Shown piece by piece: positions 14,043 through 14,249 of a stretch of 36,611 bases of DNA (positions are counted from its first letter, which is position 1; each line of letters begins with the position of its first letter). A program made the translations under genes and the position numbers. The notes under the pieces are model-generated. The model saw only the letters and a list, made by a program, of their open reading frames with translations. It did no database searches and was not told where the DNA came from. The DNA comes from Cochliopodium minus (taxonomy: Eukaryota; Discosea; Himatismenida; Cochliopodiidae): assembly GCA_024220525.1 (NCBI GenBank), contig JAMYWO010000148.1, forward strand, positions 1-36,611. The letters are read 5' to 3'.

Positions 14043-14150
14043 CCCTATTTCTCCTTTTGATAGTCCCTCTATTATTGAGTTTTTGGTTTTATTCTTAAAA
14101 AGTTGTTTTGTTTTTAAATTTTTAAAAAAGATGAATGTTTTGATTATGGA

Positions 14151-14240
14151 TAGACATGTCCAAATATTACAACTTTGTTAGCGGATATAAAGTTTTTACT
14201 AACAAATTTTCAACTGTTGTAATATTTTTGGACATCCCTA
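14151..14240 (+). mobile_element. 90-bp MITE-like element, copy 3, intergenic
   Basis: The element runs from TAGACATGTCCAAATATTAC to ATTTTTGGACATCCCTA and is flanked by perfect 9-bp direct repeats GATTATGGA (14142-14150 and 14241-14249). The inner part holds a second inverted pair, GTTAG…CTAAC, so a transcript could fold into a long hairpin. It lies 108 bp upstream of the EEP start codon, in its likely promoter region. Confidence 0.93.
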
Positions 14241-14249
14241 GATTATGGA

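Follow-up and report, generated by a model that had tools for sequence, protein, structure and literature searches.

Whether a short sequence that recurs with inverted ends is a mobile element, and what kind of transposase would have moved it, is the question raised by the window analysed here, the whole 36,611-nucleotide stretch of contig C148 in the 44.65-Mb assembly (598 contigs) of Cochliopodium minus. Direct reading confirmed the five copies reported for this DNA in the initial annotation, four of them exactly 90 bp and the fifth 52 bp long, and the core TTTGTTAGCGGATAT was found once in each (Table 1). The direct repeats described on their flanks were also present, perfect at 9 bp in copies 1, 3 and 4, perfect at 8 bp in copy 2 and matching at 8 of 9 positions in copy 5. 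The ends were indeed inverted repeats, but the TAGA start ascribed to them was not universal and the two ends of the element differ; copy 2 has TGGAG at its right end when this is read inward, and copy 5 ends in TTGA and TGGA. Copy 1 lies in inverted orientation relative to copies 2-4.

Table 1. Copies of the repeated element, their parts and their flanking duplications in the window
Feature	Position	Strand	Observation
Target-site duplication GTAAATTAT	1942..1950	.	identical to 2041-2049
MITE copy 1, 90 bp	1951..2040	-	93% identity to copy 3 over whole length; exact core
Target-site duplication GTAAATTAT	2041..2049	.	identical to 1942-1950
8-bp target-site duplication GAGGGTTC	7428..7435	.	identical to 7526-7533
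MITE copy 2, 90 bp, more diverged	7436..7525	+	80% identity to copy 3 over 87 columns; exact core
8-bp target-site duplication GAGGGTTC	7526..7533	.	identical to 7428-7435
Target-site duplication GATTATGGA	14142..14150	.	identical to 14241-14249
MITE copy 3, 90 bp, query	14151..14240	+	single long imperfect hairpin, z -6.24
Left terminal inverted repeat TAGACATGTCCAAATATTACAAC of copy 3	14151..14173	+	direct reading; consensus
Core TTTGTTAGCGGATAT of copy 3	14174..14188	+	242 exact genome occurrences, control 0
Right terminal inverted repeat of copy 3, read inward TAGGGATGTCCAAAAATATTACAAC	14216..14240	-	
Target-site duplication GATTATGGA	14241..14249	.	identical to 14142-14150
Target-site duplication AAATTTGAT	27721..27729	.	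identical to 27820-27828
MITE copy 4, 90 bp	27730..27819	+	94% identity to copy 3; exact core
Target-site duplication AAATTTGAT	27820..27828	.	identical to 27721-27729
Decayed target-site duplication GTTTAATTT	29228..29236	.	8/9 match; direct reading
MITE copy 5, 52 bp, internally deleted	29237..29288	-	core and short ends kept
Decayed target-site duplication ATTTAATTT	29289..29297	.	8/9 match; direct reading

The window is A+T-rich (A+T 76.1%, G+C 23.9%; A+T of 19 sampled loci, 74.9%) and carries short open frames that belong to eukaryotic protein families; the T-rich DNA between them resembles introns by eye. Among these are an ankyrin-repeat frame at 9556-10218, for which a protein search returned 13 relatives (the best 42% identical), a PCI/CSN7-like frame at 3244-3777 and a weak syntaxin-like frame at 15349-16080 that stays below the Pfam cut-off; long coiled-coil open frames were recognised by eye at 18188-20588. 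Neither an Rfam match nor a tRNA was found in the window.

The consensus of the family reads TAGACATGTCCAAATATTACAAC TTTGTTAGCGGATAT AAAATTTTTA CTAACAAA TTTTAAACT GTTGTAATATTTTTGGACATCCCTA. It contains no gene and is nearly all imperfect inverted repeat, with terminal inverted repeats of 23-25 bp whose two sides are unlike, the left end being TAGACATGTCCAAATATTACAAC and the right end TAGGGATGTCCAAAAATATTACAAC when read inward. The left end mostly begins with TAGAC and the right end, read inward, with TAGGG or otherwise with TGGGG or TAGAG, and there are subfamilies with different right ends (CCCTA, CCCCA, CTCTA). The inner pair TTTGTTAG/CTAACAAA lengthens the inverted repeat, so that the strand of copy 3 folds as one long hairpin, with a foldback energy of -16.9 kcal/mol vs -4.9 (sd 1.9) for 200 shuffled sequences. 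Divergence from the consensus averages 6% (range 0 to 26%), and 61 of the 70 aligned sequences are distinct, the commonest being seen four times, which suggests more than one burst of amplification, the latest probably fairly recent.

The lengths and flanks of the copies were compared. BLAST found 76 stretches in the DNA read, of which 70 are full length; six partial ones (in the window, copy 5 and a chance match of low complexity at 8795-8884; elsewhere L022:2392, L060, L074 and L090) were excluded from the length and duplication counts, and weak stretches at L021:2165, L022:2169 and L028:5705 in 10-kb loci were not counted as copies. With lengths taken as projections onto the ends of the query, 50 of the 70 measure 90 bp and 12 measure 89 bp (62/70), the remainder 80-94 bp. 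An exact-pattern search of the genome for both ends at MITE spacing, in which 78-92 bp was allowed, gave 72 matches of 90 bp and 10 of 89 bp among 100. A perfect 9-bp duplication in a single fixed register flanks 48 of the 70 full copies, and 54 have one with at most one mismatch, vs 2 perfect and 25 with at most one mismatch among 4,830 mispaired flanks used as control. The 70 copies had been selected for resembling the query or for having exact ends, so that intact lengths and duplications are over-represented in these rates. The other 16 show at least two mismatches across the nine flanking positions. Perfect 8-bp duplications adjoin the same ends in 4 of the 70 (window copy 2, L035, L044 and L068), that of L044 being A+T-only and hence ambiguous. 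The 48 perfect 9-mers are 87.5% A+T vs 87.4% in the flanks, and their only clear preference was for A at position 1, where it is in excess (31/48).

These results clearly demonstrate that the sequence belongs to a genuine family of MITEs, non-autonomous, gene-less and about 90 bp long. Its copies are short and uniform in length, carry inverted ends and duplications and are dispersed at unrelated sites, and the initial annotation as a MITE with 9-bp duplications is strongly supported by the sharp common ends and the duplications in the copies examined. The strong foldback could also be expected of a dispersed regulatory or structural palindrome that is no transposon, or of part of a larger repeat. 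This explanation is hardly credible, as the duplications occur far above the mispaired control and the flanks are unrelated: cross-comparison of 113 flanks, each 80 bp or longer, gave one weak match (69%). As the copies examined thus share no sequence beyond their ends, the element does not belong to some larger repeat, and the reading as a MITE stands.

The initial annotation had proposed a very large genome-wide number from the five copies in the window, which the genome searches did not support. The exact core occurs 242 times, 121 on each strand, and not once in the reversed control; it is present in 35 of the 70 full copies, which scales the 242 occurrences to about 484 copies. Two further copies met by chance in 187 kb of flanking DNA give about 476 (95% limits 58-1,721). 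The search with copy 3 yielded 473 candidates, of which 40 were scored, each matching 88-90 of 90 bases at 94-100% identity. These three estimates, roughly 470-485 copies, are rough because the 70 copies are a non-random sample and the first look that gave 473 candidates was loose, and their agreement should be read as a few hundred. The 100 end-to-end matches (reversed control 0) represent 99 copies, one palindromic copy being listed on both strands. Extrapolated to the whole genome, the density in the window corresponds to about 6,000 copies, roughly 13-fold more than estimated; the family is locally clustered in the window, with 5 cores observed vs 0.2 expected (Poisson 2e-6, for a window chosen because of those copies). 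A 19-base stretch spanning the core had no match in viral contigs and none in prokaryote contigs.

The common ends, the duplications, the dispersal and the subfamilies were observed directly; we infer that the copies move by cut and paste and, with less certainty, that a Mutator-like transposase moves them or once did. A trans-acting transposase from a longer element would bind both ends and move the copy; on insertion the target would be cut with a stagger of 9 bp, or rarely of 8, and filling-in by the cell would leave the direct duplication. Mobilisation in trans by a Mutator-like transposase is the best explanation of the family and is probably correct.

The initial annotation had named Mutator-like or Merlin elements as the superfamily, flagged as inference, and the guess is a reasonable one. 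Mutator-like is still the best guess, with no transposase linked to the family, and Merlin is disfavoured. The Mutator-like transposase is the likelier mobiliser judged by duplication length alone, 9 (rarely 8) bp. Duplications of MULEs are given as 8-10 bp, usually 9, in the available parts of PMC2725143 and PMC5225508, and those of the present family, mostly of 9 bp with a few of 8 bp, fall within this range; no clear target motif is seen beyond A+T richness and the A at position 1. The MULE Muta1 makes 8- or 9-bp duplications, and a sequence preference is not apparent according to the available part of PMC5225508. A search of the genome with the MULE profile PF10551 gave one match over the Pfam cut-off, at C136:41708-41917, and a protein search found a second MULE-like frame on C474 (L085, reverse strand 1098-1646), 30% identical to that of C136, with one TAA inside and flanked on one side by 1.1 kb of N. 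The C136 piece was not seen between ends of the family. The sequence TAGAGATGTCCAAA at C136:44631, 2.7-2.9 kb from the MULE piece, is an exact end but opens away from it, and on the opposite side of the piece about 4 kb is N. On C474, the matches to the ends in the 3.0 kb read, with its 1.1 kb of N, had 3 mismatches and did not exceed chance level.

Merlin (IS1595-like) transposases make duplications of 8 or 9 bp, which agrees with those found here, and their elements end in a conserved 5'-GG (available part of PMC8101967). The ends of the present family are TAG or TGG in nearly all 70 copies, not GG, and the domain DDE_Tnp_IS1595 (PF12762) had no match in the genome, in a search whose control matched 1 of 14 genomes (Haloferax volcanii) and from which introns could hide a match. 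Because of these ends and the absence of the domain from the search, movement by a Merlin transposase is very unlikely. More can be said for a hAT transposase making unusual duplications of 9 instead of 8 bp. The terminal pattern of hAT elements is YARNG and their duplications are of 8 bp, with right ends of the type TAGRG in Ac and Tam3. The right ends TAGGG and TAGAG fit this pattern, and the PF05699 profile search of the genome gave two C-terminal domains over the Pfam cut-off, one within an open frame of 757 aa and one within a frame of 969 aa, that mark hAT-type transposase genes at L063 (C259) and L064 (C1). The prevailing left end TAGAC, however, falls outside the hAT pattern, and perfect duplications are of exactly 9 bp in 48/70 copies and of 8 bp in only 4/70. 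Moreover, the pair of family ends, at up to 2 mismatches, is absent from 3.2 kb at each hAT locus, a span taken with the upstream sides excluded, and no good end occurs in a further 1.3 kb downstream of the first locus. We consider mobilisation by hAT improbable on this balance.

Another superfamily, undescribed or known, such as the P element or KDZ, is likewise doubtful as the source of the transposase. A linked transposase was not found in the genome-wide search of ends, which speaks for such an origin, but this is absence of evidence only: flanks were read to a limited extent, some of the DNA is N, and an autonomous partner could have died out or be lacking from the assembly; the KDZ profile PF18758 had no match in the genome, and its control also matched nowhere, so the result is uninformative. 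A transposase that combines terminal bases like those of hAT with a staggered cut of 9 bp would be a long shot, whether it came from a hAT lineage whose cut has changed or from a superfamily not yet described; if real, it acts in an A+T-rich, intron-bearing protist for whose transposons no description was found.

An autonomous element with these ends, which the preferred Mutator-like reading would place in a longer relative, was not found in the genome-wide end searches and limited reading of flanks. Right-end-type ends number 100 in the exact-pattern genome search (reversed control 0), and 39 of them had no partner among the end-to-end matches. Nineteen of these unpaired ends were read, and 18 carry the MITE body, either complete, or shortened, or truncated where the stretch read ends, the sole exception being C136:44631. 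Of the other 20, 13 lie on contigs with listed cores, and in 4 of these 13 an exact core stands at MITE spacing, among the matches listed.

The left-end-like sequence at C136:44631 has a counterpart at C136:21779 (L010 7819-7885 and L052 1501-1566), with which it shares 67 bp at 91% identity. Both begin like the end of the MITE and then differ, and no right end is visible; they may be remnants of a related longer element. As candidate ends of such an element they were rejected, no second copy of the adjoining 9-mer being found beside a right end in the DNA read, and for C136:44631 none was found beside a right end genome-wide at up to 2 mismatches. Directly downstream of the left-end-like sequence on L010 (C136) lies a large inverted repeat (8033-8869), whose arms are 137 bp at 97% identity and whose inner part (8338-8675) is self-inverted at 73%. 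A match to its segment 8243-8339 adjoins the hAT gene on C259 (L063), and L026 matches part of that DNA as well.

No published description of this MITE family was recognised among the titles found, mostly judged by title, and the available part of PMC2657916, on Entamoeba repeats, contains no word beginning 'MITE'. The family is a new instance whose anatomy is wholly within what is known of MITEs. It is clean, repeatedly multiplied and marked by clear duplications in an A+T-rich, protist-like eukaryote, and its defined ends may be used for finding the mobilising transposase. As compared to the hAT elements Ac and Tam3, the right ends are alike in being TAGRG, whereas hAT duplications are of 8 bp and the left end here is mostly TAGAC. 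Merlin elements (available part of PMC8101967) are alike in their 8-9 bp duplications and unlike in their GG ends and in the IS1595 domain, which was not found here. Among the MULEs of protists, EMULE-Ei1 of Entamoeba invadens shares the 9-bp duplication but has 187-bp ends, a length of 2,882 bp and a transposase, according to the available part of PMC2725143. The same source describes TvMULE1-4 of Trichomonas vaginalis, which encode a transposase frame, three of them being 2,127, 2,540 and 2,410 bp long; their short imperfect ends of 20-38 bp, compared by description, are like those of the present family. The Muta1 derivatives of Aedes aegypti differ in their 145-bp ends with subterminal tandem repeats and their known parent, as against ends of 23-25 bp and a parent not found here, but in the available part of PMC5225508 they are alike in their inverted ends, 8-9 bp duplications with no apparent target preference and hundreds of non-autonomous copies.
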